From Acidithiobacillus sp. AMEEHan (GTDB lineage Bacteria > Pseudomonadota > Gammaproteobacteria > Acidithiobacillales > Acidithiobacillaceae): DNA of 64,000 nt. Below the pieces are notes generated by a model. It was given only the letters and a program-made list of their open reading frames with translations, was not told the origin of the DNA and searched no databases. A program made the position numbers and the translations under genes. This document shows, piece after piece, positions 792-14,892 of this stretch. The DNA is taken from assembly GCF_030996345.1 (NCBI RefSeq), contig NZ_CP118747.1, positions 1,548,001-1,612,000 on the forward strand, in the 5' to 3' direction. Position 1 is the stretch's first letter. Each line of letters begins with the position of its first letter.

Positions 792-817
792 GGGTGGCTT
801 GTCGAGGAGGATTTCAC

Positions 818-1954
818 ATGAGTGCGGTAGCCCCGGAAACCAATCAACCCCTGAACTTCTATCGGCCCGACTACTTTGTCAAGACGCCGGCCATGCGTTC
901 TCCCGACTATGTGCAGTTGAGCACGGCGGCAGCCATCACTCTCGGACTCATTCCTGGCGTGATGCACCGCACCAGCTGCACTCATTGTTTGAACCTGCTC
1001 ATGACCTATCCCGAGGGTTGTCGCGCCAATTGCACCTATTGCGGCTTGGCGCGCCATCGGGAAGAGAGCCGGGACTATGCCGATCGCAACTTCATTCGCG
1101 TTGATTGGCCGACGGTGCGGGTGGACGAGATGCTCGAGCGCATTGCCGCCAACAGCGATAAGGGGCAGTTTGAGCGCATGTGCATCAGCATGATCACCCA
1201 TCCCGATTCCGACTACGACACCCAGGTGGTGCTCAAGCGCTGGATGGAAGTGGCACCACATATTCCTGCATCCATTCTTTCCAACCCCACTACCATGGAA
1301 AAGCAGGATCTCATCACGCTGAAGGAATTGGGCGCGGATATCTTTACCGTGGCACTGGATGCAGTAACGCCGGAGATTTTCGAGCGTACTCGCGGTAAAA
1401 CAGTGCAAAGCCCCCACTCTTGGGACAAATATTGGCAGACGATCGAGTGGGCAGCGGAGATCTATGGGCCAGAGAAGTTCGGCGCCCACCTGATCTGTGG
1501 CATGGGCGAGACCGAGCAGGAAATCCTGCAGGTCTGTCAACGCATGAAGGACATGGGCGGGCACAACCACATGTTTGCCTTCTTCCCGGAGAAGGGCTCG
1601 ATGATGGAAGACTGGGATCCGGTGCCGCAGGACCAGTGGCGGCGGGTACAGCTCGGACGCTTCCTCATCGACTATGCCGGTGGTCGCTTTGAGGATATGA
1701 GCTTTGACGAATACGGCCGGGTGGCGGACTTTGGCTTCCCGCAAGCCGAGCTTGAGGACATCATCGACTCGGGCAAGCCGTTCCAGACCTCCGGTTGCCC
1801 GGGCAAGGACGACGAAGAGGTAAGCGCCTGCAATCGTCCCTATGGCGATTCTTCGCCTTCGGACATTCGCTCCTTCCCCTTTGCCCTCAACAAGCAGGAC
1901 GTGGAGATCGTGCGGCGCCAGATGCGCCTGAAGGATCTGCAGTTCCCCGGCTGA
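818..1954 (+). CDS. lipS2: Radical SAM protein of the LipS lipoyl synthase type (probably LipS2)
   Basis: This 378-residue protein carries the radical SAM cluster motif C68-x3-C72-x2-C75 (EGCRANCTYCGLAR). A further CTHC pair lies at residues 54-57, and more cysteines lie near the C terminus in SGCPGKD and SACNRPYG. These extra cysteines could bind a second iron-sulfur cluster, as sulfur-inserting enzymes require. The C-terminal segment DIRSFPF is faintly reminiscent of the RSSY cluster-ligand motif of LipA. The start at 818 follows GAGGAGG at a good distance, 26 bases after the lipT-like gene, so the two are probably cotranscribed. LipS1 and LipS2 together insert two sulfur atoms into octanoyl groups. 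Position after lipT suggests LipS2, but LipS1 or another biotin-synthase-like enzyme cannot be excluded. A terminator follows at 1976. Confidence 0.7.
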   Translation: MSAVAPETNQPLNFYRPDYFVKTPAMRSPDYVQLSTAAAITLGLIPGVMHRTSCTHCLNLLMTYPEGCRANCTYCGLARHREESRDYADRNFIRVDWPTVRVDEMLERIAANSDKGQFERMCISMITHPDSDYDTQVVLKRWMEVAPHIPASILSNPTTMEKQDLITLKELGADIFTVALDAVTPEIFERTRGKTVQSPHSWDKYWQTIEWAAEIYGPEKFGAHLICGMGETEQEILQVCQRMKDMGGHNHMFAFFPEKGSMMEDWDPVPQDQWRRVQLGRFLIDYAGGRFEDMSFDEYGRVADFGFPQAELEDIIDSGKPFQTSGCPGKDDEEVSACNRPYGDSSPSDIRSFPFALNKQDVEIVRRQMRLKDLQFPG

Positions 1955-2071: not shown

Positions 2072-2121
2072 TTTGATTGTGACGGTTATTGCAACACTTT
2101 GTTCTATCCGCCACAATCAAA
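2072..2121. promoter_or_regulatory. Long inverted repeat upstream of the FadL-like gene
   Basis: TTTGATTGTGACGG (2072-2085) and CCGCCACAATCAAA (2108-2121) are reverse complements at 13 of 14 positions, with a 22-base spacer. The repeat ends 28 bases before the GTG start of the FadL-like gene, in an AT-rich intergenic stretch. It could be an operator for a dimeric regulator or an RNA hairpin in the leader. No T-run follows it, so it is not a plain terminator. Confidence 0.55.
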
Positions 2122-2149
2122 ACACGTTTTGACAACAGAGGGCGAGGAA

Positions 2150-3511
2150 GTGAAGAAGACGAAAATCTTGGGCTATGCAGTTGCCGCGGCCATTGCTGCT
2201 GCGGGTTTCTCCAGTAATGCGTTTGCCACCAACGGCTACCAGCTGATCGGTATCGGTCAGTATGCAATCGGTATGGGCGGTGCGGTTGTGGCTGCTCCTG
2301 ATGATCCTTTGTCTGCGGCCATCAGCAATCCTGCGGGTCTGGCTTTGATGCGGCCGCAGGCGGCCTTCTCTGCCGAGATATTCAACCCTACTCGCAAGAC
2401 CAACATGGGTTTCGGGGAGATTGGTAGCCACAGTAACGTTTATGGTATTCCGGCAATTGGTTGGGTGGCACCGGCTTTTGGCGACGGGATCGTATTCGGC
2501 GGTGGCGTCTACGGCACCTCTGGTTTGGGCGTGAACTATCTGCAACCTAATGTGATGGGTCCGGCATATCAGTATGTCAAGAATAATCAGGTTCAAATGC
2601 CTACCCCCACATTAGCGCAAGGTGTGGCGCAGGCCTACAGCAGCATCACCTTCATCCAGATGGCTCCGTCCATTGCGATGAAGGTGAATTCGCATCTCGC
2701 AGTAGGAGCCTCACTAAACATCGCGGCGGAACAGGGATCTTTTCAGCAAACATTTTCCCCTTATAGCCCTGTTGTTGTGAACAACAGACTGAACGCCTAC
2801 GTTGGTGGTGGTCTGAATCTGTCCACGCCTTCTTGGGCTTATGGTGTTGGTTTGACCATTGGTGCGTTGTACAAGGTCAATGATATGGTCACCTTGGGTG
2901 CGACCTACAAATCACCAATGATTTTTACTCCTCTCACTTTCCAGGCTGGTGCTCAAGCAACGCCTAACGGTACGCAAGGTAATCCTGGTCAATACAGTGG
3001 TCATCTAAACTACCCGCAGCAGATCGCTCTGGGATTGGCTATCCGACCCATCCCGCAATGGTTAGTCAGTGTGGAAGGGCAATGGATCAATTGGCACAAT
3101 ACCCTCAACACCTTCAATATTTATGGTCCTTGGCAGGGCACCAATGTAGTGGCATTACCACTCAACTGGCGCAACCAGTGGGTAGCCAATATTGGCACGC
3201 AGTATGATGTCAACAATTGGCTGCAAGTGCGTGCGGGCTACACTTGGGGCTCCAACCCGGTGCCGAACACCAGTGCGGCAATTGCGTCCAACACCATCTT
3301 CCCCGCTATCGTCCAGAATGCGATTACCTTCGGTGCAACGCAAAAGCTGGGAATGGGTTGGAAGTTGACCGAGGCCTACATGCATGCCTTCAGCAATACG
3401 ATGACTGGTGCCCCCGGCTCCGCGCCCTTCGCTCCTGGAGATCCTCTGCAAGCAGCATCTTCGACCCTTGCCGAGAACTCCTACGGTATCCAAGTCGGTT
3501 ACGACTTCTGA
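2150..3511 (+). CDS. FadL/TodX-family outer-membrane transport protein
   Basis: This 453-residue protein belongs to the OMPP1/FadL/TodX family, whose members form outer-membrane beta-barrels that take up hydrophobic molecules. It starts with GTG at 2150 after GAGGGCGAGG. The signal peptide begins with basic residues, continues with an Ala-rich core and ends at SNAFA before TNGYQLIGIG. The family landmark DDPLSAAISNPAGLALM follows the mature N terminus. The chain ends in YGIQVGYDF with a terminal aromatic residue, as outer-membrane barrels do. In fatty-acid-using bacteria the substrate is long-chain fatty acids. In a sulfur lithoautotroph uptake of hydrophobic sulfur or lipids is conceivable but only a guess. 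It stands alone between two terminators, with a strong inverted repeat in its upstream region. Confidence 0.88.
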   Translation: MKKTKILGYAVAAAIAAAGFSSNAFATNGYQLIGIGQYAIGMGGAVVAAPDDPLSAAISNPAGLALMRPQAAFSAEIFNPTRKTNMGFGEIGSHSNVYGIPAIGWVAPAFGDGIVFGGGVYGTSGLGVNYLQPNVMGPAYQYVKNNQVQMPTPTLAQGVAQAYSSITFIQMAPSIAMKVNSHLAVGASLNIAAEQGSFQQTFSPYSPVVVNNRLNAYVGGGLNLSTPSWAYGVGLTIGALYKVNDMVTLGATYKSPMIFTPLTFQAGAQATPNGTQGNPGQYSGHLNYPQQIALGLAIRPIPQWLVSVEGQWINWHNTLNTFNIYGPWQGTNVVALPLNWRNQWVANIGTQYDVNNWLQVRAGYTWGSNPVPNTSAAIASNTIFPAIVQNAITFGATQKLGMGWKLTEAYMHAFSNTMTGAPGSAPFAPGDPLQAASSTLAENSYGIQVGYDF

Positions 3512-3632: not shown

Positions 3633-4022
3633 ATGAAGACGATACCGATTGCCGATGTCAGTACCCTCAAGAATGAGCTGAACAAGTACAAGAAGGGCAA
3701 GAAGCTCGAAATTCCTCGCTTCAACCAACTCGCTCGCATGGCCTATCTGGGGCGGCTGGTGATGGCGCCTCTCGACCCCGAGGATCCCGCCTGTAAGTCC
3801 TATCTGGTCCACGTGCAGGAGCCGCAAGGGTTGGCTGCGCATTTCATTGAGCTCGATGAAGATCTGATCGACGGTATTCTCATCCTCGACGGAGAACAGG
3901 CCATGGCCATGGCAGGGATCATGCAGCAGGGGGTGGAAGACCGTGCCCGTTGGCATGAGGAGCTGAACCAGCGCGATTTCTATTTTTCCTCCTTTTATCG
4001 CCCCAAGGAGCGCGCAGAGTAG
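3633..4022 (+). CDS. Hypothetical protein, 129 aa
   Basis: I do not recognise this family. The ATG at 3633 is preceded by GAGGAG at a good distance. The protein opens with a Lys-rich helix (LKNELNKYKKGKKLE). Its middle alternates hydrophobic strands with acidic segments (HFIELDEDLIDGILILDG), and it ends in an aromatic, charged tail (FYFSSFYRP). No signal peptide or membrane segment is visible, so it is probably cytoplasmic. It lies eight bases before the lipoate-ligase-like gene and is probably cotranscribed with it. Confidence 0.7.
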   Translation: MKTIPIADVSTLKNELNKYKKGKKLEIPRFNQLARMAYLGRLVMAPLDPEDPACKSYLVHVQEPQGLAAHFIELDEDLIDGILILDGEQAMAMAGIMQQGVEDRARWHEELNQRDFYFSSFYRPKERAE

Positions 4023-4030
4023 AGTCGAGC

Positions 4031-5053
4031 GTGGTGCCCGGAGTGCGAAGGGAACTGCGCTGGCTGGATCTCGGGCATTTGGGTGCAGGGGAACTCCACC
4101 AGTCCTATCAGGCCTTGGCCGAGTTGCGCCGTGCCGATGATCCCATCTTTTTCTTGCTGGCGACTGCCGATGCGCATCTGAGTCTCGGTGCCGCCCAGAC
4201 TGCCTCTGCGGAGCTGGATGAGGCCGCTTGCGCGTCCGTAGCCGTCGTTCAGCGTCCTCTTGGTGGTGGGCTGGTTTGGGTGGAGCCGGCGCATCTGAAC
4301 TATTTTTTCCTGGCTACCCCGGATGCGCGGTGTCGACGTCCGGAGGACTTGCTGGGGCGGATGGCACCGACCATCCAGGCCGTCCACGCGCAGTATGGGT
4401 TGCCTATAGAGCTGGCGGCGGGGCAGGAGTTTCGCTGTCGCGGGCGGCGTATTGGCAGTACCGGTGCCGCTACCATCGGCAAGAGTTTGGTGCTGGCGGG
4501 GAGTTTTCTGCTGCAGACCGATTGGCGCCCCCTCGTCGCCAGTGTCGCCACGCCGTCGCCGGAGTTCCGCAACACGCTGGCGCGCGCCTTGTCCGCTTCG
4601 CTCACCAGCTGGAAAGCAGAGCTCGGGTCCACGATGCTGCCCAGTCATGGCGATCTGAAGAATGCGTGGAAGGCGCAACTGCTGGCACAGGACTGGCAGA
4701 TTTCCGAGGCGACGCTTGGCAGCACAAATCGTTCAGCATGGCAAAAGGTGGAGTGCGAGCCAGTGGATTGGTGGAGCCAGGGCCGCCGCCGGGTGCGCAA
4801 TGGTATCAAACTGCGCGCTGAGGCATTCCTCACGGAAGAACACTGGCCGGATGGCTGGCTGCGGGTCTGGACGGAAGACGGTTACTATCGGGAAATCGGG
4901 AGTGATACCTGGCCAGAGGAATTGTGCTGGGCTTTGCAGGGAGTTGCCGCGGGCTCCACCTTGCTTCCGCGCCTGTTGGATGGCTATCTCGGTAGCAGCG
5001 CGAGGCTTTGGCAGAAACGACTGGAAGAACTTTCTGTCTGGTCCGATTCATGA
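4031..5053 (+). CDS. Divergent lipoate-protein-ligase-like protein (BPL/LPL fold)
   Basis: This 340-residue protein looks like a lipoate-protein ligase A relative. Residues 74-83 (QRPLGGGLVW) match the RRxGGGxV substrate loop. ADAHLSLG near residue 46 matches the segment before it, and RRIGSTGAA (139-147) corresponds to the K-[IV]-S-G motif. The C-terminal 90 residues resemble the accessory domain of LplA. At the position of the catalytic lysine an arginine (R140) is seen, and the glycine order after it is altered, so ligase activity is doubtful. It begins with GTG and follows a small unknown gene by eight bases. The LipS/LipT genes are only 2 kb upstream, which supports some role in lipoate handling, perhaps binding or an unusual transfer. 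Function is inferred. Confidence 0.65.
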   Translation: MVPGVRRELRWLDLGHLGAGELHQSYQALAELRRADDPIFFLLATADAHLSLGAAQTASAELDEAACASVAVVQRPLGGGLVWVEPAHLNYFFLATPDARCRRPEDLLGRMAPTIQAVHAQYGLPIELAAGQEFRCRGRRIGSTGAATIGKSLVLAGSFLLQTDWRPLVASVATPSPEFRNTLARALSASLTSWKAELGSTMLPSHGDLKNAWKAQLLAQDWQISEATLGSTNRSAWQKVECEPVDWWSQGRRRVRNGIKLRAEAFLTEEHWPDGWLRVWTEDGYYREIGSDTWPEELCWALQGVAAGSTLLPRLLDGYLGSSARLWQKRLEELSVWSDS

Positions 5054-5069
5054 AGAACAGGAGAATGGG

Positions 5070-5441
5070 ATGCCGACGATAGAAGATCGCTTACGCAAGC
5101 GCTTGATCTGGATGACGAGCGATGAGGAAATGCTCAAGCTGGCGCGTGACAGCCTGCCGGCCGAGTGGTCGCTGACCGCGGCCTTGGCGGTGGAGGATTT
5201 TGACGACTGGCAGGAGATCCTGCTGCATCGCTTTTTGGTATTGGACTTGGGAGATCCGGCGATCGACCACAGCGTGATCGACGAAATCCGCCGTGAACAC
5301 CAGTTGAACATCCCCATTTTCTGCTATGGGGGCAGCGAAGAAGAGCGCCTGGCTGCACGCTCCGCGCGGGCCGACCGTTTCTTCAACCAGGAGGAAATCC
5401 TACAAAAACTGCCGGAGTTCCTGCGCCAATTTTCCTGGTGA
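5070..5441 (+). CDS. Hypothetical protein, 123 aa
   Basis: I do not recognise this family with certainty. The start at 5070 follows AGGAG. The pattern of hydrophobic strands (RFLVLDLGDPA, NIPIFCYGG) alternating with helices, ending in FNQEEILQKLPEFLRQF, looks like a Rossmann-like or response-regulator-receiver-like alpha/beta fold. A clear phosphoacceptor set is not evident. It follows the lipoate-ligase-like gene by 16 bases and probably closes that operon, since a gene on the other strand converges on it. Confidence 0.65.
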   Translation: MPTIEDRLRKRLIWMTSDEEMLKLARDSLPAEWSLTAALAVEDFDDWQEILLHRFLVLDLGDPAIDHSVIDEIRREHQLNIPIFCYGGSEEERLAARSARADRFFNQEEILQKLPEFLRQFSW

Positions 5442-5481: not shown

Positions 5482-5805
5482 TCAGCCGACTTTGGCGTGC
5501 GCCTCGGTGTCGAGGAGCAGCTCATGGCTCTCGCTCTGTCCGTCGCTGGAAACTGTCAGTGTGGCAACGCGAACGCCAGCATCCTTGAAGGTCAGTTCGT
5601 AGGAGAACATGCCGGGCAACTCGACATTGCTCTCTTTCAAGGTCTTGCCCTCGCAGGTCAGGGTCACCTTGGCGCTACCTTGCCCGTCAAGCATGGCCTG
5701 GATGCGGAAGGGATGCCCCACCACCCGACGATAGACCTGCGGGTCACGATTGGTGTTGTATTGGAGGTTGTTGAGTTTGACCATCTTGACGAGTTTCTTG
5801 CTCAT
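5482..5805 (-). CDS. Small cytoplasmic protein with beta-rich, SoxZ-like character, 107 aa
   Basis: The ATG at 5805 follows AAGGGG on the minus strand. The protein has no signal peptide. Its last 75 residues are a series of short beta strands (FRIQAMLDGQ, KVTLTCEGKT, SYELTFKDAG, VATLTVSSDG) that resemble an Ig-like sandwich such as SoxZ or the C-terminal half of SoxYZ proteins. The resemblance is in pattern only, and the conserved SoxZ motifs are not clearly present. It is the only minus-strand gene within the first 12 kb and is divergent from the AAA+/VWA operon, so the 114-base gap at 5806-5919 probably holds promoters for both directions. Confidence 0.6.
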   Translation of the reverse strand: MSKKLVKMVKLNNLQYNTNRDPQVYRRVVGHPFRIQAMLDGQGSAKVTLTCEGKTLKESNVELPGMFSYELTFKDAGVRVATLTVSSDGQSESHELLLDTEAHAKVG

Positions 5806-5919: not shown

Positions 5920-6318
5920 ATGTACGACAAAACCCTGACGCTGGCGCGGCTGGACGCGGCGCAAGCCCGTATCGAGGGGCTTGGGCGCAATGCTGCAAAT
6001 CGCGAGTTCTCTGCAAATCTGCAGGAAGGCATGGCGATTGCTGGCGACATATTGCAGGCGTTGCTGGCATCGGAGGGTAAGGAATCCGATCCGAACGCGG
6101 ATCTGCTCGCGCTTTGGAAAACTCTGGTGAAGGGGCAGCCGCACTGGAATACCATCCGCGATAATTGCCGCGAGTTAGTGTATTACCAGAACTGTCTGGC
6201 AATGGATCGCGCAGATGCCTTGCCGCCGCAACCACAAAAAATGCTGCTGCACACCCTGCGGCATTTGTATCTTTACGCCCGCAGCCATACCGAACAATCG
6301 CAAGAGGAGACATCATGA
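5920..6318 (+). CDS. Hypothetical helical protein, first gene of the AAA+/VWA operon
   Basis: This 132-residue protein is largely alpha-helical and has no membrane segment. I do not recognise it. The ATG at 5920 follows GAGAGGAG. Its stop overlaps the start of the CbbQ-like ATPase by four bases (ATGA), so the two are translationally coupled. As the leading gene of the operon it may encode an adaptor or a subunit of the ATPase complex, but that is inference from position. Confidence 0.68.
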
Positions 6319-7136
6319 GTCGGAGCAGCCATGGCGACAACGCCCTGCGCTATATCAGCGAAGAACCGTTTTACCAGCCGGTGGGGAGTGAGCTGGGGAT
6401 CTTCATGGCGGCCTGGGGGCGGCGCCTGCCGGTCATGCTCAAGGGTCCGACGGGCTGTGGCAAGACCCGTTTTCTCGAGCACATGGCGTGGCGCCTCAAG
6501 CGTCCCCTGATCACCGTGGCTTGCCATGAGGATCTGACCAGCTCGGACTTGGTGGGACGTTTCCTGATCGAGGGCGACGAAACGGTCTGGCAGGATGGTC
6601 CCCTGACTCGGGCAGTGCGGGAAGGCGCTATCTGTTATTTGGATGAGATTGTTGAGGCACGCACCGATACCACCGTCGTCATCCATCCCTTGACCGACCA
6701 TCGCCGTCACCTGCCCATCGATAAATTGGGAACGGAACTCACCGCCCACCCCGACTTTTTGTTGGTGATTTCCTACAACCCCGGTTATCAGACTGTATTG
6801 AAAGATCTCAAGCCTTCCACCAAGCAGCGTTTTGTCGGCATGAACTTCACCTACCCGCCGGCGGAGCTGGAGGCGCAAATCGTGATGCGCGAGTCGGGCC
6901 TGGATGCCGATCGTTCCAATAAGCTGGTGCAGGGGGCGGCGAAAGCTCGTAATCTCAAGGATCAGGGCCTACAGGAGGTTACTTCCACCCGAGCCCTGGT
7001 CTATGCCGGCACCCTGATGGCCGCGGGCCTGGCCCCGCTCGAGGCCATCGAGGCGGCCATCATCAGTCCACAAACGGACGATCCTGAACTCGCCTCGGCA
7101 CTGACGGAAATCTTTACCACCTTCTTTGGCGCCTGA
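6315..7136 (+). CDS. CbbQ/NorQ-family MoxR-type AAA+ ATPase
   Basis: This 273-residue protein has Walker A GPTGCGKT (residues 44-51) and Walker B CYLDEI (107-112). It also has the strongly conserved [17 protein letters not shown] and ISYNPGYQ segments of the CbbQ/NorQ/GvpN group. Members form hexamers that, with a VWA partner, remodel or activate a metal enzyme. Known clients include Rubisco (CbbQ) and nitric oxide reductase (NorQ). The VWA partner is encoded immediately downstream. No Rubisco or nor genes are in the window, so the client is not known and I give no gene symbol. The start at 6315 follows AGAGGAGA and overlaps the upstream stop. Confidence 0.9.
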
Positions 7137-7143
7137 GGCCGAC

Positions 7144-9636
7144 GTGTCTGCTGCCAGCGAGGAGATCCTCGAGCATCTCGAAGCGATCAGTTTTGTAGCC
7201 GGTCGCGACGCTCGAGCAGCCCTGCCCGCTGTCGAGGCGCTGGGCGATGCAGCAGTTCTGCGGTATCTGGAGACGGGTCGAGATCTGTTTTTTTACGATC
7301 GCGAAGCGGGCAAGGCCTTTTTCCATGCAACTGCGGCTCTGGTGCGTGCCTTTGGTGGTCTCGACCCGTGGTTGGAACAGTCGCGCGTCTTTCTCACCCA
7401 GCGCGGCACCTTTCGCGCAGCAGTGGGGTATTTCGAGCAAGCCGCGCAGGTTCGCGAGGAATACGGCGTAGCCGGAGAGAAGATCTGGTATGAGGAAGGC
7501 GCGGACTGGATCGACCGTCATGTCGATAGCGCTGCAGCGTATTTTCGCACGCCCATAGCCCGGCTCTTTGGTGCCTATGCGGCCGAAGACCTGCGCATCC
7601 TGCTGGCGCCGGCACGGGAATTGGCCAAGGGTCGTCTGGGGCTGGCCAGCTATCTCGAGGGCGCGATCAAGGTGCGTGCCATTTGTGGGCTGGAGGGGGT
7701 GCAGGACTGGGCGCTGCGCGGTCGCGACATTCTTGCTGCCGGTCGTATCCGGGGCGAGGCCTGGTACAAACTCGAGAGCGACGAGGCCCGTGCCTTTTTG
7801 CTGGAGGTCTTGCCGGGCTTCCGCATTGGTCCGCACAAGCGTCTCTTCGCCCTGCTTTTGCAGGCCTGGACGGGGCTGCACCTGCCCTTCGAGGACGGCG
7901 ACTGGAGTGTGGAAGGAGGACGCAGCTTCCTGGAAACCGATGGGCGCAGTCTTTTCGTTCCCGCAGTGATGCCCGATCGAGAAGAGGCCATTCTTGCCTT
8001 CTATCACACCGGCGCCCATCTGGCCTTTGGTAGTTACGACGAGGAGGCCATTCGCGCCTTGTTCCGGGAGATCGGCAGCGAGCATCCGCCCCTCGATGCC
8101 GACCAGCGCATCACCTGGCGTCCGCTTTTTGCCCAGTTCGGTGCGGATCTGCTGCGCTTTCAGTTGATCTTCGATATCTTGGAAGATTTGCGCGTCGATC
8201 TCGCCATGGAGCGGGAAATGCCGGGGTATTTGGCGCGGCTGTTGCGCGCCGCGGGGCAGCGAGCGCTGCCCCCGGGTGCGGCCGGGGCCTACTGGCGCGA
8301 AGCCCTGCATCTCACTCGTCTAGCGGCGTCCGCCCAGCTTCCGGCGGAGTTGGCCATTCTCGCATCTCCGTCTGCGGGTATCCTCGACGCCTTCCGCTTG
8401 GCGCTGGCGCGCTACGCGCACACCGAGCTTCCTCCCATCACTCTGGCGGAACGGGCGGCAGCATTCCTGCCCGGACACTCCCCCAATGCGGCACGCCCGG
8501 TCTACCCTCGTAAACAGGGTAAGAGTGAGGCGGTGGAGATGGACGCCGGGGGACAGCTCGGTGCAGCCGGCCACAAAGAAAAGCCGCGCGAGGCGCCGCA
8601 GCAAGCAGAAGGCAACGACCCGGATCTGGAGATTCCGCCCGAGGACATTCAAGGTACTGGCGGTCGGGTAGGAGTGGGGATTCCCATGCCTGCCAAGGTC
8701 CATGGCAGTGGCCGCGCCGTAAAAGGCCCGAAGGGTGGTTGGCCCTACAAGGAGTGGGACTATCGGCAGGAAAAGTACAAAGATCACTGGGCGCGGGTAC
8801 ACGAGCGCAAACTGCGGGAGCATGACGAGGCACGAGCGGTGGAGATTGCTGCGGAATATGACGGCACCATGCGCCGTCTAAAGAAGGCCCTGCAGGCACA
8901 GAAGCCCACGCGCATGTCACCTCTGCGGCGACAAAAGGAGGGGGAAGAGCCAGACATTGACGCCGCCGTACAGTTTGTCGTCGAGCGGCGCGCCGGGCAG
9001 AGCCCCAAGGCCAATATCTACCGACAACGTCGGCCCTTGCAGCGCGATACCGCGGTGCTCCTGCTTGCCGATCTCTCCACTTCGATCATGGCCGAGGCGG
9101 CAGATACCGGCATCCGCGTCGTCGATCGTCTCCGCGCGGCCATGCTGCTCTTTGGCGAGGCCTTGGTCGAGGTAGGTGATCCCTTCGCCCTCTATGGCTT
9201 TGCCAGCAAGTACCATCAGGAGGTATTGCTCTATCCGATCAAGCGCTTCGACGAGCGCTTCGACGCGCGGGCGCGGGCGGTCCTCGGGGGCTTGAGCGGA
9301 CGTCTGGCGACGCGTATGGGAGCGGCGATTCGTCACAGTACCCGCCAGTTGTTGCGCAGCCCTGCACAGCGGCGCTTGCTCCTGATCCTCTCCGACGGCC
9401 GTCCTGCCGATTATGACGATGGTGGCGATCCCCGTTATCTGCAGGAAGACACGCGTATGGCGGTGCGCGAGGCGAGAGAGCTGGGGGTGCATGCCTTTTG
9501 TATCAGCCTTGACCCACGCGGTGGCGACTATCTGCCTCTGGTCTTCGGGCAGGGGCATTATCTGGTCCTGCCCCAGATCGACCACTTGCCGCAGCGACTC
9601 CCGGAAATCTATCTGCGTCTACGAGGCCATCGATGA
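7144..9636 (+). CDS. CbbO/NorD-family VWA-domain protein
   Basis: This large protein (830 residues from the GTG at 7144) has a long alpha-helical N-terminal part and a charged linker around residues 455-560. A C-terminal VWA domain has the MIDAS motif DLSTS near residue 643. It also has LSDGRPADYDDG and the closing pattern HLPQRLPEIYLRL typical of NorD and CbbO. Its length is closer to CbbO (about 780) than to NorD (about 640). Such proteins bridge the hexameric ATPase encoded just before and the target enzyme, with the MIDAS metal binding an acidic residue of the client. GAGG stands just before the GTG at 7144. A TTG at 7126, inside the ATPase gene, is an alternative. The downstream gene overlaps by four bases. 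Confidence 0.87.
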   Translation: MSAASEEILEHLEAISFVAGRDARAALPAVEALGDAAVLRYLETGRDLFFYDREAGKAFFHATAALVRAFGGLDPWLEQSRVFLTQRGTFRAAVGYFEQAAQVREEYGVAGEKIWYEEGADWIDRHVDSAAAYFRTPIARLFGAYAAEDLRILLAPARELAKGRLGLASYLEGAIKVRAICGLEGVQDWALRGRDILAAGRIRGEAWYKLESDEARAFLLEVLPGFRIGPHKRLFALLLQAWTGLHLPFEDGDWSVEGGRSFLETDGRSLFVPAVMPDREEAILAFYHTGAHLAFGSYDEEAIRALFREIGSEHPPLDADQRITWRPLFAQFGADLLRFQLIFDILEDLRVDLAMEREMPGYLARLLRAAGQRALPPGAAGAYWREALHLTRLAASAQLPAELAILASPSAGILDAFRLALARYAHTELPPITLAERAAAFLPGHSPNAARPVYPRKQGKSEAVEMDAGGQLGAAGHKEKPREAPQQAEGNDPDLEIPPEDIQGTGGRVGVGIPMPAKVHGSGRAVKGPKGGWPYKEWDYRQEKYKDHWARVHERKLREHDEARAVEIAAEYDGTMRRLKKALQAQKPTRMSPLRRQKEGEEPDIDAAVQFVVERRAGQSPKANIYRQRRPLQRDTAVLLLADLSTSIMAEAADTGIRVVDRLRAAMLLFGEALVEVGDPFALYGFASKYHQEVLLYPIKRFDERFDARARAVLGGLSGRLATRMGAAIRHSTRQLLRSPAQRRLLLILSDGRPADYDDGGDPRYLQEDTRMAVREARELGVHAFCISLDPRGGDYLPLVFGQGHYLVLPQIDHLPQRLPEIYLRLRGHR

Positions 9637-10814
9637 ACGAGGCTCGGCTCCTGCGGGAGCGGATTCCAGCAACGCGTCCGGCGCTCTTCGTGGGGGCGGC
9701 GCGCTATCGGCGGAATAGCTACGGCAGAAATCATCCCCTTGCCATTCCGCGCGTGTCCTTGACCCTGGATCTCATCAACAGCTATGGGGCGATGGGCTCG
9801 GCGGAGTATCGCCTGGGCCGGCCCGCCAGCCATATCGAGCTCTGGGGCTTTCATACCCGCGAGTACATTCAGGCCTTCGAGAAAGCGCAATTTCGCGGTC
9901 GTGTCACCGATCAAGATCGCCGCGTCTACCAGCTTGGCACCTTGGAGAACCCCTGTTTCCCGGGATTTTTTGATACCCCCAATCTCGCAACGGGGTCGAG
10001 CATCCAGGCGGCGGAGTTCGTCTTGCAGGGGCAGACGGCCTTCAGTCCGGCGGGAGGGATGCACCATGCCGCGCCCCATCAGGCGCGCGGGTTCTGCTAT
10101 TTGAATGATCCCGTATTGGCCATTCAGCGATTGCGCCGTGCGGGTCTGCGGGTACTGTACTGGGATCTCGATGCGCACCATGGTGATGGGGTAGAAGCGG
10201 CCTTCGTCGCCGACCCCGAGGTACAGACCGTCTCCATCCACATGGATACTGCCTATGCCTATCCTTTCCAGGGCGGTGGCCTGATGGACCAAGCGGGTGG
10301 CGCCGTGAACCTGCCGCTGCCGCCGGAGGTCAACGACAGCGAGTACCGGCAGGTTTTTTCCAGCCTCTGGCCGCGGGTGCTGGAGGCCTTTGCTCCCGAT
10401 GTGGTGGTGCTGCAGGCGGGTACCGATATCCTCGCTCCCGATCCGTTGAGTAAGTTTCGTATCAGCAACGTCTTTTTTTGGGAAATGGCGCGGCGCATCG
10501 TCGCCGAGAGTCCGCGTTTGTTGGTACTCGGAGGGGGCGGCTATCATCCCATTGCCTTGGCGCGTTGCTGGACCGGCCTTTGGGCCATCCTCTCCGGCCG
10601 GGAGTTGCCCAACGCCATGCCTGCCACTGGTCGTACGTTGCTCGAAGACGTGGAATGGGAACTGGATGATGAAGATGCCCCGGATTATTCGCGTCAATTC
10701 GAACGCCTCGATGACCTGCCCCATCAGGGCCCGATACGACCGGAAATCAGCGAGCGGTTGCAAATCCTTTTGCGACAGCATCCCCTTTTTATCGATAGGA
10801 GAGTCTGGGCATGA
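9633..10814 (+). CDS. Histone-deacetylase-fold hydrolase (AcuC / acetylpolyamine amidohydrolase class)
   Basis: This 393-residue protein has the full zinc hydrolase signature of the arginase/deacetylase superfamily. The His pair H144-H145 sits in GGMHHAAPH, followed by GFCYLND. The zinc ligands D180 and H182 are in DLDAHHGDG, and QAGTD carries the third ligand. Known members deacetylate acetyl-lysine (AcuC) or acetylpolyamines. It overlaps the VWA gene by four bases and the aldo/keto reductase gene by four bases, so all are in one operon. A deacetylase in a MoxR/VWA operon is unusual. It could control the acetylation of the client enzyme, but nothing in the sequence names the substrate. Confidence 0.87.
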   Translation: MNEARLLRERIPATRPALFVGAARYRRNSYGRNHPLAIPRVSLTLDLINSYGAMGSAEYRLGRPASHIELWGFHTREYIQAFEKAQFRGRVTDQDRRVYQLGTLENPCFPGFFDTPNLATGSSIQAAEFVLQGQTAFSPAGGMHHAAPHQARGFCYLNDPVLAIQRLRRAGLRVLYWDLDAHHGDGVEAAFVADPEVQTVSIHMDTAYAYPFQGGGLMDQAGGAVNLPLPPEVNDSEYRQVFSSLWPRVLEAFAPDVVVLQAGTDILAPDPLSKFRISNVFFWEMARRIVAESPRLLVLGGGGYHPIALARCWTGLWAILSGRELPNAMPATGRTLLEDVEWELDDEDAPDYSRQFERLDDLPHQGPIRPEISERLQILLRQHPLFIDRRVWA

Positions 10815-11956
10815 GTGAATCCCCTGATTTGATCCCTGGCGCCGCCAACAGTCTGGCGACCAAGAAGTACGCCGAACGTTTTGTTGCCGCGGGCCTGCCC
10901 GAGGGACACTACAGCGATTTCCTCAATACCCGTATCAAGCTCTCTTCCCTTGGAGTAGGCACCTTCCCCGGCGCCATCGACGAGGTAACGGATCTGGCGG
11001 TGGCTGCCATCGTGGTGCAGGCCCTGCAGTCAGGAATCAATGTGATCGATACCGGCGCCAACTATCGCTATGGGCACGCGGGACGTGCGGTGGGTGCCGG
11101 GATTGCCAAGGCCCTACAAGCGGGGATCAAGCGAGAGGAATTCTTTGTTTTGGGCAAGGGGGGCTTTCTCACTTTTCCCAACGGGAAACCAGATAATCTC
11201 GAAACCTTTTTTGCTGAGGAAGTCGAGGCCAAAGGACGCGGCAAAAAAGAAGATCTTGCTCACGGTATCCACTGCCTCAGCCCAGAATATCTCCTTTGGC
11301 AACTGGATGAGCTGCGCGCGCAGACCGGTTTGGCAACCCTGGACGCCTTCTTGGTGGACCAACCCGAAGTGCAGATCCCCGTCATTGGCAAGGAGCAGGT
11401 CTACCGTAAGCTGATCGATGTTTTTGCGGCCCTGGAGGGGGCGGTGGCGGAGGGCAAACTGCGCTACTACGGAATTTCCACCTTCAACGCCTGCCGGGTA
11501 GAGACTGATAATCCCCTGTTTCAATCGATGACCAGCCTGCTGGGCCTGGCCGAAAAGGCGGCGGGGGAGGGCAAACGCCACCACCTGCGCATCGTTGAGC
11601 TGCCCTTCAACGCCCTGATGCCCGAGGCCTATACACGTTTCAGTCAGGTGACCGGCCAAGGTAACATCGCCTCCACCATTCAGGCAGCCTATCAGCTCAA
11701 ACTGACGGTCATGGCCAGTCACCCGCTCGGCAAAGGGCTTCTCGGGCGGGAAGAGGTGCCATCATTGCAAGAGGCCATGCCCGAGCTGGCCAACGCTGCG
11801 CAGCGCGCTACGCAATTCGTCCGCTCGACGCCAGGAATTGCGGTGACTCTGGTGGGGATGAGCAATCCCCTGCACATGGCTGATTTCCTCGCCGTTGCCA
11901 AACAGCCACCCCTGGAGAAAGAGCGCTTCCTGGCCATGTTCGAGAAGGAGAAGTAG
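10811..11956 (+). CDS. Aldo/keto reductase family protein
   Basis: This 381-residue protein has the TIM-barrel aldo/keto reductase pattern. GINVIDTGANYRYGHAGRAVG contains the catalytic Asp and Tyr, and FFVLGKGGF the catalytic Lys. LVDQPEVQ stands where most members have LHNPE, so the usual active-site His is missing. The segment KLRYYGISTFN and the late VTLVGMSNPLHM are cofactor-binding positions. It is longer than the usual 280-350 residues. The start overlaps the deacetylase stop by four bases, and this is the last gene of the operon. The substrate is unknown. The missing His suggests altered catalysis or a role as a ligand-binding subunit. Confidence 0.82.
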   Translation: MSESPDLIPGAANSLATKKYAERFVAAGLPEGHYSDFLNTRIKLSSLGVGTFPGAIDEVTDLAVAAIVVQALQSGINVIDTGANYRYGHAGRAVGAGIAKALQAGIKREEFFVLGKGGFLTFPNGKPDNLETFFAEEVEAKGRGKKEDLAHGIHCLSPEYLLWQLDELRAQTGLATLDAFLVDQPEVQIPVIGKEQVYRKLIDVFAALEGAVAEGKLRYYGISTFNACRVETDNPLFQSMTSLLGLAEKAAGEGKRHHLRIVELPFNALMPEAYTRFSQVTGQGNIASTIQAAYQLKLTVMASHPLGKGLLGREEVPSLQEAMPELANAAQRATQFVRSTPGIAVTLVGMSNPLHMADFLAVAKQPPLEKERFLAMFEKEK

Positions 11957-12185: not shown

Positions 12186-12770
12186 CTATGGCTGATCGGA
12201 GTCAGTTCCCTTTTTCTTTCTACTGATCTCGGTGAGGAGGCGCTCTTGTTCGGCAAAGGACATGCGGCGGCTGCCGGCGGTGAAGCCCTTGCTCGTTGCA
12301 CCTGGTGCGGCCGGATGACCAGCGCGCTCGCTTTCTTTGATGTTCCGGTATTCCCGTAATTCCTTCTCCCACTGCTGGCCGGCATCGAGATTTTCCGGGC
12401 GTCCTTGAAAATCTTTGGGTGCTGCCGGCGTTTGCTGGGCAAACCACGCGGCCTTGCGTTGCTCGCGGTTGAACCGGCTGACCCAGTTGCCCAATTGGCG
12501 CAGGTCGATCAGGGCGAAGAGCAGCATCAATACGCCAAGGCCCAGGGGAAACGACCATGGCAGTGTCAGAGCGAGGATGACGACCACCAGGCTGGCCATT
12601 GGATAGAGCCAAGCCAGCGGCTGCTGCAAGTAGAAGCGGTGTAGGCCCAGGAAAAACCCCAGCCAACTCAGATAGGCGGTAGAGGTCTTCTTCTGCAGTC
12701 GTTGTAATCGAATCTGCACGCTCTGCAGCCCCTCGCCCTTGAGGTCGAGTTTCTCCCAGGCTTTCGGCAC
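12186..12770 (-). CDS. TM2-domain-like membrane protein, 194 aa
   Basis: GTG at 12770 follows GGGAG. A short cytoplasmic N terminus precedes the segment YLSWLGFFLGLHRFYLQQP, which resembles the TM2 domain with its G-x-H-R-F-Y turn. One or two further membrane helices follow (MASLVVVILALTLPW, LGVLMLLFALIDL). The C-terminal 90 residues are charged and probably cytoplasmic. The function of TM2 proteins in bacteria is not established. It is divergent from the LysR gene at 12852, with an 81-base shared promoter region. The 229 bases between it and the aldo/keto reductase show no gene. Confidence 0.7.
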   Translation of the reverse strand: MPKAWEKLDLKGEGLQSVQIRLQRLQKKTSTAYLSWLGFFLGLHRFYLQQPLAWLYPMASLVVVILALTLPWSFPLGLGVLMLLFALIDLRQLGNWVSRFNREQRKAAWFAQQTPAAPKDFQGRPENLDAGQQWEKELREYRNIKESERAGHPAAPGATSKGFTAGSRRMSFAEQERLLTEISRKKKGTDSDQP

Positions 12771-12851
12771 CAGTGATTCTCCCGGAAAATGTGTTGAACC
12801 GCTCTGATATTACCCCTAAACTCTGGCAAAGTCGCGAGCGACAGGAAAAGT

Positions 12852-13787
12852 ATGGCAGATAGAAGATTGCAGGTCTTTCACACGGTGGCGCGTCTGTTGA
12901 GCTTCACCAAAGCGGCGGAGACTCTGCACATGACGCAACCGGCGGTGACCTTCCAGGTCAAGCAACTGGAAGAGCAGTTCAATACCCGCCTCTTCGATCG
13001 TACCCACAACCGCATCAGCCTCACGGAGGCGGGCATGGTGGTGTACGAATACTCGGAACGGATTTTATCGTTGTATTCAGAAATGTCCAACCGTGTCGGC
13101 GAGATGACAGGAGACCTCCGCGGCCATCTCCTGATCGGCGCGAGCACGACGATTGCCGAATACATGCTGCCGCGCGTCTTGGGCGATTTCAAAATGAAGT
13201 ACCCGGATGTCCAGGTGCGGCTGCACGTCGGCAACACCGACAAGATCGTACACATGATTGAAGACAACAGCATCGATCTGGGTCTGGTCGAAGGGGTGGT
13301 GACCAATAAGAGTCTGGCCACGCTGAAGTGCTGCATGGACAACATGATCGTCATCGCGCCGGCGGATCATGTGCTGGCGGAACATCAGACGGTTTCGCCT
13401 CGAGAGCTGCTCGACTTCCCCTTCGTATCGCGAGAAGAGGGTTCTGGCACCCGGGAAGTCACCATGGAATATCTCAGTCAGGAAGGTGTCGATCCCCAAG
13501 ATCTGCATATCACCATGGAACTGGGCAGTCCGGAGGCGGTCAAGGGTGCCGTAGAGGGTGGCTTGGGGGTTGCAGTTGTCTCTGAGGCGACGGTCCTCAA
13601 GGAGCTCGCCCTGGGTTCGATTGTCGCCCGTCCGCTCGACCCGCCGCTGGCGCGACCCTATTTCTTCGTCTACCAAAAGCAGAAATTCCGTAGTCTGGTG
13701 ATGGACGAGTTCCTCGAATTTTCCAAAGAGCGTTGTGCCAAGGACTTCCTCAGCTTGCCAAAGCAACGCGGGGTGATCCGATCATGA
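12852..13787 (+). CDS. LysR-family transcriptional regulator (CysB/CysL/CbbR-like)
   Basis: This 311-residue regulator has the N-terminal winged helix-turn-helix typical of LysR proteins (FTKAAETLHMTQPAVTFQVKQLEEQF, residues about 18-43). A two-lobed effector-binding domain follows, with the conserved LLIGASTTIAEYMLP start and the REEGSGTR segment. The pattern is closest to the CysL/CbbR branch, which senses sulfur or carbon metabolites. ATG at 12852 follows AGGAAAAG. The next gene overlaps it by four bases, so regulator and target protein are made together. The effector is not known. Confidence 0.9.
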   Translation: MADRRLQVFHTVARLLSFTKAAETLHMTQPAVTFQVKQLEEQFNTRLFDRTHNRISLTEAGMVVYEYSERILSLYSEMSNRVGEMTGDLRGHLLIGASTTIAEYMLPRVLGDFKMKYPDVQVRLHVGNTDKIVHMIEDNSIDLGLVEGVVTNKSLATLKCCMDNMIVIAPADHVLAEHQTVSPRELLDFPFVSREEGSGTREVTMEYLSQEGVDPQDLHITMELGSPEAVKGAVEGGLGVAVVSEATVLKELALGSIVARPLDPPLARPYFFVYQKQKFRSLVMDEFLEFSKERCAKDFLSLPKQRGVIRS

Positions 13788-14539
13788 AGCATTTTGCCGT
13801 CGTACAGCATAGTTATTCAGAGTTCTTGGGCATTATCGAGAGCCAGCTGGAAAAGCGGGATATTGGATTCAGTTATTTCCGCGTCTTTCTCAGCCAGGAG
13901 TTGCCGAGTAGCGCTCTGACTTTTGACGCATTATTTCTGCTTGGTGGGCCCATGTCGCCCATGGAGCAGGACAAATATCCTTGGCTGGAACAGGAATTAC
14001 AGACCATCGGTGCCTTTCGCAAGGCTGGACGTCCCATTGTCGGTTTGGGACTGGGAGCGTTGCTGATCGCACAGTATGAAGGTGCGGAGCTTAGCTTGGA
14101 GCCTTATCACAATGCTTACTTCACGACCGCGCACGCGACCGCTGCCGGGCGTGACGATCCACTGGCGCGGGCGGTCGATGGACGTCAGGTCATGGTGTGG
14201 TCTGCGGGTACTGCCAAGTTACCAGAGTCCATACAGCCCCTGGTAGTCGATGATGAGGGGCGCTGGATTGCCTTCCGACCGAAGGACGGCGGCGCCATGG
14301 CCATGCTCTTCCGCCCGGAAATGAAGCCGGGCCTGATTGAAGACATACTCATGGAAGAAGATCGGGAAACCCCGGACAATATTGGGGAGTTACTGGCGCA
14401 GGCGCGCGAGCTCTGGCCCGAGATGCAGAAGACCACGGATCGAGTACTGGTGGCCTTGGTGCAGGAACTTTCCTTGATGTCCGAGAAGCGGAAGCCACGG
14501 GTCTTTGCTCTCAACGTTGCCCCAGCCGAGAAGTCATGA
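13784..14539 (+). CDS. Class I glutamine-amidotransferase-like protein lacking the catalytic cysteine
   Basis: This 251-residue protein follows the class I amidotransferase fold: FDALFLLGGPMSP, then RPIVGLGLGALLIA, then a late segment MVWSAGTAKLP. The nucleophile elbow normally reads G-x-C-x-G-x-Q. Here it reads G87-L-G-L-G-A-L, so both the Cys (now G89) and the oxyanion Gln are replaced. The His of the triad is also not evident. The protein is therefore probably not an amidotransferase and may be a binding or regulatory protein. Its start overlaps the LysR stop by four bases, and its own stop overlaps the next gene by four bases. Confidence 0.78.
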   Translation: MKHFAVVQHSYSEFLGIIESQLEKRDIGFSYFRVFLSQELPSSALTFDALFLLGGPMSPMEQDKYPWLEQELQTIGAFRKAGRPIVGLGLGALLIAQYEGAELSLEPYHNAYFTTAHATAAGRDDPLARAVDGRQVMVWSAGTAKLPESIQPLVVDDEGRWIAFRPKDGGAMAMLFRPEMKPGLIEDILMEEDRETPDNIGELLAQARELWPEMQKTTDRVLVALVQELSLMSEKRKPRVFALNVAPAEKS

Positions 14540-14892
14540 ACGCCTATGAGCGCCGCTTACTGCGCGTGAGTCGTAAGCTGGATGATTCGCAGCGTGAGCA
14601 ATTACTGACTTTCGCCGAGTTTCTCGTCAGTCGCAGGAAGGATACCGCAGCCAACGCCAATCCTACCCTGCATGAGCCTCTGCCGATTCCCGCGCGGGAG
14701 GGGGAGACAGTGGTTGGGGCCATCAAACGTCTGCGCGAGGCATACCACATGCTCGATGCCAAATTGATGCTCAACGACACCGCCTCGGTGATGTCGAAGC
14801 ACGCCGTCGGTGGCCTGCCCGCAGAAGAAGCAATCGCTGAGCTGGAAAGCCTTTTTCTGCGCCATTACGAGCGCTATCGCGACGAGCCTTGA
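14536..14892 (+). CDS. Hypothetical helical protein, 118 aa
   Basis: I do not recognise this family by name. The N-terminal 30 residues (RVSRKLDDSQREQLLTFAEFL) form an amphipathic helix of a kind seen in small regulatory or toxin-antitoxin-like proteins. The rest is helical with two conserved-looking stretches, GAIKRLREAYHMLD and EEAIAELESLFLRHY. Start and stop overlap the neighbouring genes, so it belongs to the operon of the LysR regulator, the amidotransferase-like protein and DedA. Confidence 0.72.
   Translation: MNAYERRLLRVSRKLDDSQREQLLTFAEFLVSRRKDTAANANPTLHEPLPIPAREGETVVGAIKRLREAYHMLDAKLMLNDTASVMSKHAVGGLPAEEAIAELESLFLRHYERYRDEP

Follow-up and report, generated by a model that had tools for sequence, protein, structure and literature searches.

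A distinct CbbQ/NorQ-type AAA+/VWA gene pair of Acidithiobacillus that occurs with sHdr-LbpA sulfur-oxidation genes

The DNA considered here, called the window, is a stretch of 64,000 nucleotides from Acidithiobacillus sp. AMEEHan (genome G000; contig NZ_CP118747.1, positions 1,548,001 to 1,612,000, forward strand). Near its start lie five closely packed genes (5920-11956), the second and third of which, Q and O, form the window's AAA+/VWA pair; a small divergent gene, named IgX here, stands just ahead of them. Q-O is genuine and conserved, a variant of CbbQO that is tied to lipoate-based sulfur oxidation. In print, Q3O3 denotes the carboxysomal pair of A. ferrooxidans (PMC5437159), and that label is not used for the window pair. 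The genes are as follows.

5920-6318, plus strand: hel, an all-helical protein of 132 residues with a conserved C-terminal half; model at a predicted local distance difference test (pLDDT) score of 94; no Pfam family at E 0.01
6315-7136, plus strand: Q, a CbbQ/NorQ-type MoxR AAA+ ATPase with AAA_5 (PF07728) and CbbQ_C (PF08406), in a clade of its own (97/94)
7144-9636, plus strand: O, a CbbO-like adaptor of 830 residues with a GTG start, a CbbO-related N-terminal region and a C-terminal VWA domain with DxSxS (tree support 99/97)
9633-10814, plus strand: HDAC, a class-I/HDLP-like HDAC-fold zinc hydrolase (Hist_deacetyl, PF00850, 4.8e-68) with its active-site motifs kept
10811-11956, plus strand: AKR, an aldo/keto reductase of a diverged family (Aldo_ket_red, PF00248, 4.4e-20; weak PDB relative) with its motifs kept
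5482-5805, minus strand: IgX, an immunoglobulin-like (Ig-like) beta-sandwich protein of 107 residues, divergent from the operon, with no signal peptide by look

Overlaps of 4 base pairs join hel to Q, O to HDAC and HDAC to AKR, and no more than eight bases separate the end of Q from the GTG start of O at 7144, with a TTG in the same frame at 7126. An earlier note on this DNA had described five genes overlapping by four bases or lying within eight, and the open reading frame (ORF) coordinates confirm that observation; the families it had named (MoxR AAA+, VWA, HDAC-fold and aldo/keto reductase) are also those returned by Pfam and PDB matches. IgX was absent from its list. Its interpretation is partly supported, as set out below.

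The sequences of Q and O have the general features of a MoxR AAA+/VWA pair, namely a Walker-motif motor adjoining a VWA protein with DxSxS. In the PDB, Q matches the CbbQ-type 5c3c (1.1e-102), and solved CbbQ and NorQ are both matched. In Pfam, O has a VWA_CoxE match only, below threshold; against the PDB, residues 538-832 at its C-terminal end match NorD chains (8.3e-44). Relatives of O were fetched via six short O patterns, which gave 76 loci. The patterns find only close relatives of O, so the sulfur-oxidizer look of all named hits among these loci is partly by design. The motifs GPTGCGKT and YLDE of Q and the DxSTS of O, of the metal ion-dependent adhesion site (MIDAS) type, are kept in 76/76 full-length relatives (the motif counts include a few genomes twice). 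The five-gene cluster is more than chance, since O has relatives in 76 loci, most of them aligned near full length and with the key motifs kept.

In phylogenetic trees Q-O stands apart as a third branch among AAA+/VWA pairs of the CbbQ/NorQ type. In the Q tree (49 sequences) the window group is split off by a branch with support 97/94, and in the tree of the VWA part of O (51 sequences) it is supported at 99/97; the Rubisco-linked and the NO-reductase-linked pairs (NO, nitric oxide) lie outside it in both. The trees have midpoint roots, with long branches flagged and no approximately unbiased (AU) test. For the comparison pairs, Rubisco linkage was assigned by RbcL hits and NO-reductase linkage by COX1-family neighbors in three cases, where these neighbors were confirmed, and by look in the others. 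G000 itself has two other CbbQO pairs, one next to a form II Rubisco and the other within the form I region, and both trees set the window pair apart from them, which bears out the earlier note in holding Q-O separate from Rubisco CbbQO; the comparison that it had proposed of the VWA protein with CbbO and NorD trees likewise puts O in a clade of its own. The two midpoint-rooted trees disagree on the nearest known pair, with Q grouping toward CbbQ in one and the VWA part of O toward NorD in the other.

When the first 535 residues of O were compared with the N-terminal region of 14 CbbO-clade proteins, hhalign gave 97.6% with E 4e-12 (one comparison) over 319 columns at 18% identity, which indicates a distant relation to CbbO rather than orthology. 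Against 8 NorD-clade proteins hhalign gave 0.5%, with no detectable relation, and a NorD-type identity for O was rejected for this lack of N-terminal similarity. The window pair is thus like the CbbQO pairs of A. ferrooxidans (CbbQ1O1, CbbQ2O2 and the carboxysomal Q3O3) in having an AAA_5 plus CbbQ_C motor and a large adaptor whose N-terminal region is related and whose C-terminal part is a MIDAS-type VWA domain. The window Q is ~60% identical to Rubisco-linked Q, whereas the BLAST similarity of the window O to CbbO lies mostly within the VWA part (~34-41%). The window pair differs further in its own clade, in its linkage to sHdr-LbpA rather than Rubisco, and in its partners, which are IgX and often hel, HDAC and AKR. 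With NorQ/NorD, which serve FeB insertion into NO reductase, it shares a MoxR motor with a VWA partner; it differs in its separate clade, in the N-terminal regions and in showing no NO reductase linkage by look.

The start of the window lies inside an sHdr-LbpA locus, and the five-gene module is the downstream end of that locus. Upstream in G000, on the same strand, are HdrC-, HdrB- and HdrA-like genes, an unnamed ORF, and further HdrC- and HdrB-like genes, which we take to be sHdr subunit genes. Then come two GCV_H-like genes (lbpA) flanking a DsrE-family gene, LipS1, a lipoate ligase, lipT and the window's LipS2. After LipS2, the order is FadL-like, hypA, a second ligase-like gene, RR, IgX (divergent), hel, Q, O, HDAC and AKR, so that all genes of the run from sHdr to AKR stand on one strand except IgX. 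In NCBIfam, the Hdr-like, LipS1 and ligase genes all score below the curated cut-offs, and the lip gene names (lipS1-slpl-lipT-lipS2) follow published sHdr-LbpA clusters (PMC10332631), at the downstream end of which the window module would sit. In its passages on these clusters, that paper has no mention of Q-O, IgX, hel, HDAC or AKR, and its main text contains “deacetylase” and “MoxR” 0 times. The earlier note had seen no client nearby, and in this it overlooked the sHdr-lbpA-lip locus that adjoins the module on its upstream side.

The conservation of gene order was compared among the 76 loci, which were sorted by hand from titles and neighborhoods into Acidithiobacillus-type (19), Sulfuriferula-like (18, two of which, L079 and L086, come from one draft genome), Thioalkalivibrio/Acidihalobacter-type (25) and Acidiferrobacter-like (14) groups. 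The counts leave out 7/76 loci whose contig lacks Q or O; those upstream leave out 8 further loci with <1.2 kb upstream, and those downstream drop their own short rows. IgX lies divergently upstream of Q in 15/15 Acidithiobacillus, 12/12 Sulfuriferula-like and 22/22 Thioalkalivibrio-type loci, which means that it stands beside Q-O in all 49 of the 49 loci of these groups with flank, and in 0/12 Acidiferrobacter-like loci. The gene hel is near Q in 15/15, 12/12, 3/22 and 0/12 loci of the four groups in the same order. HDAC directly follows O in 13/13 Acidithiobacillus, 3/12 Sulfuriferula-like, 16/21 Thioalkalivibrio-type and 0/13 Acidiferrobacter-like loci, and AKR is downstream of O in 13/13, 3/12, 17/21 and 0/13, respectively. 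The earlier note had treated the five genes as one system and proposed a survey for their co-occurrence and for a shared further gene. Its full order holds in 13/13 Acidithiobacillus loci and fails to generalize (Sulfuriferula-like 2/11, Thioalkalivibrio-type 2/20, Acidiferrobacter-like 0/11); the shared further gene was found and is IgX, which accompanies Q-O more constantly than any other gene. Only in Acidithiobacillus do the five genes form a unit, and therefore the wider core is Q-O plus IgX.

Linkage to sHdr, lbpA or lip genes is seen in the Acidithiobacillus, Thioalkalivibrio and Acidiferrobacter groups. Matches to these genes fall within the fetched stretch in 10/19 Acidithiobacillus-type, 0/18 Sulfuriferula-like, 10/25 Thioalkalivibrio-type and 0/14 Acidiferrobacter-like loci, many stretches ending before they reach them; the Sulfuriferula-like loci have weak dsrE3-like hits only. 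In the Acidiferrobacter-like genomes Q-O is located elsewhere, adjoining housekeeping-looking genes, and IgX is present in 14/14 of the genomes, each time accompanied by hypA, RR, hel and HDAC. Ten extended stretches around these IgX clusters contain AKR in 10/10 and lip genes in 7/10, and the three without lip genes (L117, L123 and L124) stop at a contig end before reaching them. This split of Q-O from the IgX cluster means that the same gene set is kept in two places. Another split is seen in G145 and G260, where IgX adjoins lip genes in a stretch without hel, HDAC and AKR, and Q-O is on another contig. Overall, IgX was found in 23/24 handles, the single miss being a 1.6 Mb assembly.

A fairer sample than the 76 fetched loci is a survey of 369 genomes of the class, the same genomes being searched for IgX, O and sHdrB1, with at most two O candidates scored per genome. 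Some kind of O match occurs in 183/369 genomes, and 17 of these are near whole-length (>700 bits, at least 48% identity); the next-best has 227 bits and covers the VWA part. The 17 genomes with full-length O span 10 families. IgX is found in 20 genomes and sHdrB1 (at E 1e-60) in 22, with overlaps of 17 for O and IgX, 16 for O and sHdrB1, and 19 for IgX and sHdrB1. Put differently, the sHdrB1 genomes of the class have IgX in 19/22 cases and O in 16/22, and the one genome with O and IgX and without sHdrB1 (G361) is 75% complete. Among further handles with O, sHdrB1 is present in 27/31 (Sulfuriferula-like 16/17, Acidiferrobacter-like 11/13, and 0/1 for a repeat of G361); one miss, G004, has a contig that is cut off at lipS1 (L122). 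The genome samples overlap slightly, since three genomes recur under two handles (G013/G231, G019/G175 and G020/G180, with the same places in the IgX results of both sets). Q-O therefore occurs with sHdr-LbpA sulfur-oxidation genes and IgX, and the module co-occurs with sHdr even where the two are unlinked. A second copy of sHdrB1 was noted in G000 (C1:1500874-1502208, minus strand; L224), ~37 kb from the sHdr locus and identical to the first at 100% in protein and 99.25% in DNA; the 19 kb around it had no match to the other query genes.

The IgX protein has 22 invariant columns in an alignment of 15 diverse members. No Pfam or NCBIfam match was found at E 0.01, and a profile search of the PDB gave no convincing match. 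Its predicted structure is an Ig-like sandwich (pLDDT 88), and its fold matches include SoxZ in 2ox5, a SoxYZ complex (Z 9.4, root-mean-square deviation 2.0 over 85), and 1v8h, which we take to be a SoxZ (Z 9.6, 2.3 over 84), with many unrelated Ig-like rows tied. A “SoxZ-like” identity was dropped, as the Ig-like sandwich is common, SoxZ is tied among many and Pfam gives no match. IgX is of the same size as SoxZ; it differs in the missing Pfam match and signal peptide and in having no invariant Cys column, even though a Cys is found somewhere in 75/77 sequences. The C-terminus reads [LI]D-x-x-x-H-x-x-x-G. Among 77 tail sequences, distinct by their last 60 residues, the terminal Gly is present in 75, the Asp in 74, the His in 73 and all three in 72. 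The Rubisco tail tied to CbbQO in print is KLDxxHK or KLDxxxR (in the relevant passage of PMC8718961), and the likeness of the two tails, judged by their motifs, is only a hint. The IgX tail is not clearly a recognition signal for O, because the O-less genomes G130 and G215 keep it (O-less G171 lost the His) and the O-bearing G145 and G260 lack it; IgX of L146 (G145) and L145 (G260) has a wholly different, charged C-terminus despite O in both genomes.

The closest solved relative of the window HDAC is the class-I-like deacetylase HDLP of Aquifex aeolicus (1c3r; 2.1e-82, residues 19-377 of 393), a bacterium that presumably carries sHdr genes as well; the match scores 280 bits, compared with 181 for human HDAC8. 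The motifs GGMHH, GTD and GGGYH are kept in 57/57 relatives and DxDAHHGDG in 55/57, and by alignment to HDLP the window protein keeps the zinc ligands, the His pair, the class-I Asp and the catalytic Tyr. A published review, which also describes the class-I Asp, places HDLP in class I and regards it as an active protein deacetylase (PMC8556138). Deacylase activity of the window HDAC is likely because these class-I/HDLP-like active-site motifs are kept. In AKR, the motifs D/Y, K and DQPE are kept in 59/59 full-length relatives, and DQPE presumably stands at the place of the usual AKR His. The hel model is a helical bundle; HEPN domains are among its best fold rows, none at E 0.001 or better, and a HEPN function was not adopted on matches this weak. 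A profile search of the PDB with hel gave nothing convincing.

Known clients of MoxR/VWA pairs are few and include Rubisco, NO reductase and some respiratory or metal enzymes. The window Q-O probably services a sulfur-oxidizing enzyme and not Rubisco, since it is a separate branch that travels with sHdr-LbpA, IgX and HDAC. On balance, it is fairly probable that Q-O, with IgX and the other partners, is an ATP-driven remodeling or maturation machine for the sHdr-LbpA pathway, to which only its gene company points. By analogy with known relatives, Q would be the motor ring and O the adaptor of Q. Through its CbbO-like N-terminal region and the metal site of its VWA domain, O might present or grip a cytoplasmic client of the sHdr-LbpA pathway. 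ATP hydrolysis would then remodel the client, either freeing an inhibited active site, as with CbbQO and Rubisco, or completing cofactor insertion, as with NorQD and NO reductase. HDAC and AKR, which adjoin the module in many, not all, cases, could act as accessory enzymes by which damage to that client, or an acyl-type modification of it, is removed or reduced. The relatives behind this scheme, in which a Q ring is the motor and O the adaptor, acting through its N-terminal region and MIDAS to remodel the client, are described in passages of PMC4660213, PMC9976466, PMC5437159 and PMC8718961. Since IgX is present in all O genomes of the class survey, it is the leading single candidate for a client subunit or a co-adaptor, with the sHdr subunits and LbpA as alternatives. 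Maturation of a metalloenzyme by the module, as the earlier note had also entertained, is possible, and the sHdr pathway would be the obvious place to look.

Several observations weigh against a dedicated machine of the sHdr pathway. Three genomes of the class (G130, G171 and G215) have sHdrB1 and IgX and no full-length O; in G215, IgX, hel, HDAC and AKR are together without Q-O, and the stretch in G130 has just IgX and AKR. Another three (G191, G320 and G346) have sHdrB1 with neither O nor IgX. Among 383 genomes of the phylum, IgX is found in G000 only and sHdrB1 in seven, and the six of these from other classes (66-76% identity) all lack IgX. The sHdr system can thus run without the module, and the absence of IgX from those six means that the module is confined to a single branch of the organisms using sHdr. 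Hyphomicrobium denitrificans, the genetic model for sHdr in print, may by the same token be without the module. Acidithiobacillus alone has a fixed five-gene order, and both HDAC and AKR are downstream of O in just 3/12 Sulfuriferula-like loci. The Fisher values for co-occurrence (1e-27 to 3e-22) ignore shared ancestry and overstate independence, with some genomes in more than one set. In addition, PF00016, the Rubisco large subunit family, is found in 48/50 tested handles (one genome counted twice, and the G022 match a fragment), so co-occurrence leaves room for Rubisco as the client.

With this distribution of PF00016, and with the relation of the O N-terminal region to that of CbbO, one could consider Q-O to be a further (fourth) Rubisco activase of the CbbQO kind that is merely located away from Rubisco. 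However, the Q and O clades are separate from the Rubisco-linked ones, and no Rubisco was hit in the 76 loci with flanks up to 10 kb (using a form II query that finds form I at ~130 bits). On its one contig, G043 has a single PF00016 match with a Rubisco-clade CbbQO pair of its own ~10 kb off, and still carries a window-type Q-O ~390 kb further; G401, a 1.7 Mb draft with a partial O at a contig end, has no PF00016 match. As judged from the trees, the locus content and G043, Rubisco as the client is weakened, and a fourth activase is rather improbable. A low-scoring PF00016 protein in G000 and in some other genomes could be proposed as the client instead, yet the O-bearing G043, G247 and G287 have one PF00016 match each, full-scoring, and none of the low-scoring kind, which leaves this proposal close to refuted. 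The low-scoring Rubisco-like protein of G000 (C1:1453490; L088 5404-7571; G000:C1 ~1453400-1455600) adjoins a small class II aldolase-like ORF, by look. NorQD-like maturation of a heme-copper or other membrane enzyme draws on the likeness of the VWA and AAA+ parts across all such pairs and on the place of O, though not of Q, on the NorD side of its midpoint-rooted tree; given an O N-terminal region without detectable relation to that of NorD, and no NorB-type gene recognized beside the window module by look (no systematic search was made), it is very improbable.

Another possibility is that the neighborhood has no functional meaning for Q-O, the genes sharing an old locus with sHdr while serving redox, general stress or some other process. 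The neighbors LysR, GATase, RR and hypA are conserved as well, as such a history would allow, whereas the co-occurrence persists with Q-O, IgX and sHdr on different contigs or far apart; a modest chance is left to this explanation. Alternatively, the deacylase could be at the center, with hel, IgX and Q-O presenting an acylated or lipoylated lysine to HDAC for acyl editing of LbpA or an sHdr subunit. HDAC has kept its motifs, is found in a lipoate-assembly locus and stays with IgX and hel when Q-O leaves. It is not right after O, however, in 9/12 Sulfuriferula-like and 5/21 Thioalkalivibrio-type loci, and the delipoylating enzymes named in one literature listing are sirtuins and lipoamidase rather than HDLP-type enzymes; a deacylase-centered function is unlikely. 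Equally speculative is a repair or editing machine for lipoate-based sulfur oxidation made up of Q-O, IgX, hel, HDAC and AKR, in which O would recognize IgX, or a complex that contains it, by the nearly invariant IgX C-terminal tail, in the way that CbbO depends on the KLDxxHK/R tail of Rubisco. The motor would open the sHdr-LbpA complex, and the deacylase would strip off acyl or lipoyl groups that are damaged, which would allow the carrier to be recharged. If such a repair machine existed, it would be, to our knowledge, the first AAA+ activase for a sulfur-oxidizing enzyme, and HDLP-type bacterial deacetylases would gain a pathway.

Under the fairly probable reading of a remodeling machine, the sHdr pathway would gain from this third CbbQ-type branch a dedicated ATP-driven helper, with a definite partner named in IgX and a class-I-type bacterial deacetylase placed in a concrete pathway. 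In the sHdr literature consulted, maturation and repair of the pathway are not addressed beyond lipoate assembly. The open-licence PMC literature, as searched in part and with subscription papers outside the search, held nothing that joins a window-type Q-O or HDAC to sHdr; in the passages concerned of PMC6450195 the two searched terms are unrelated to each other.

The genes from the last lipoate-assembly gene up to IgX in the window are listed below.

794-1954, plus strand: LipS2-type radical-SAM protein at the end of the lipoate-assembly genes (NCBIfam LipS2 198.7 bits, below the 270-bit cut-off), with the sHdr genes upstream, outside the window (L087)
2099-3511, plus strand: FadL/OmpP1-like outer-membrane protein, by look (ORF)
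3633-4022, plus strand: hypA, a protein of ~130 residues that matches nothing in Pfam or NCBIfam and is conserved close to the module in three groups (Acidithiobacillus, Thioalkalivibrio, Acidiferrobacter)
4031-5053, plus strand: second lipoate-ligase-like protein, diverged (PF21948, 2.7e-14)
5070-5441, plus strand: RR, a receiver-like protein of 123 residues, by look, with no Pfam or NCBIfam match, conserved near IgX

In the second ligase-like protein, the presumed ligase Lys, which we take to be catalytic, is replaced by Arg in the window and two relatives and kept in the five others shown in the alignment; the gene is perhaps a non-catalytic paralogue. The position of the FadL-like gene fits lipY, a “putative fatty acid transporter” of the published clusters (PMC10332631, in the passage on these genes). 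In G000, two frames (28-528 and 483-791) cover lipT, where the relatives L011 and L035 have a single frame of ~350 residues; either the assembly has a frameshift or the gene is broken. After AKR, 12186-14892 encodes four products that are conserved in several groups: a small membrane-like protein on the minus strand, a regulator of the LysR type, a GATase-like protein and a protein of 118 residues. One guess is that the GATase-like gene is the published lipX.

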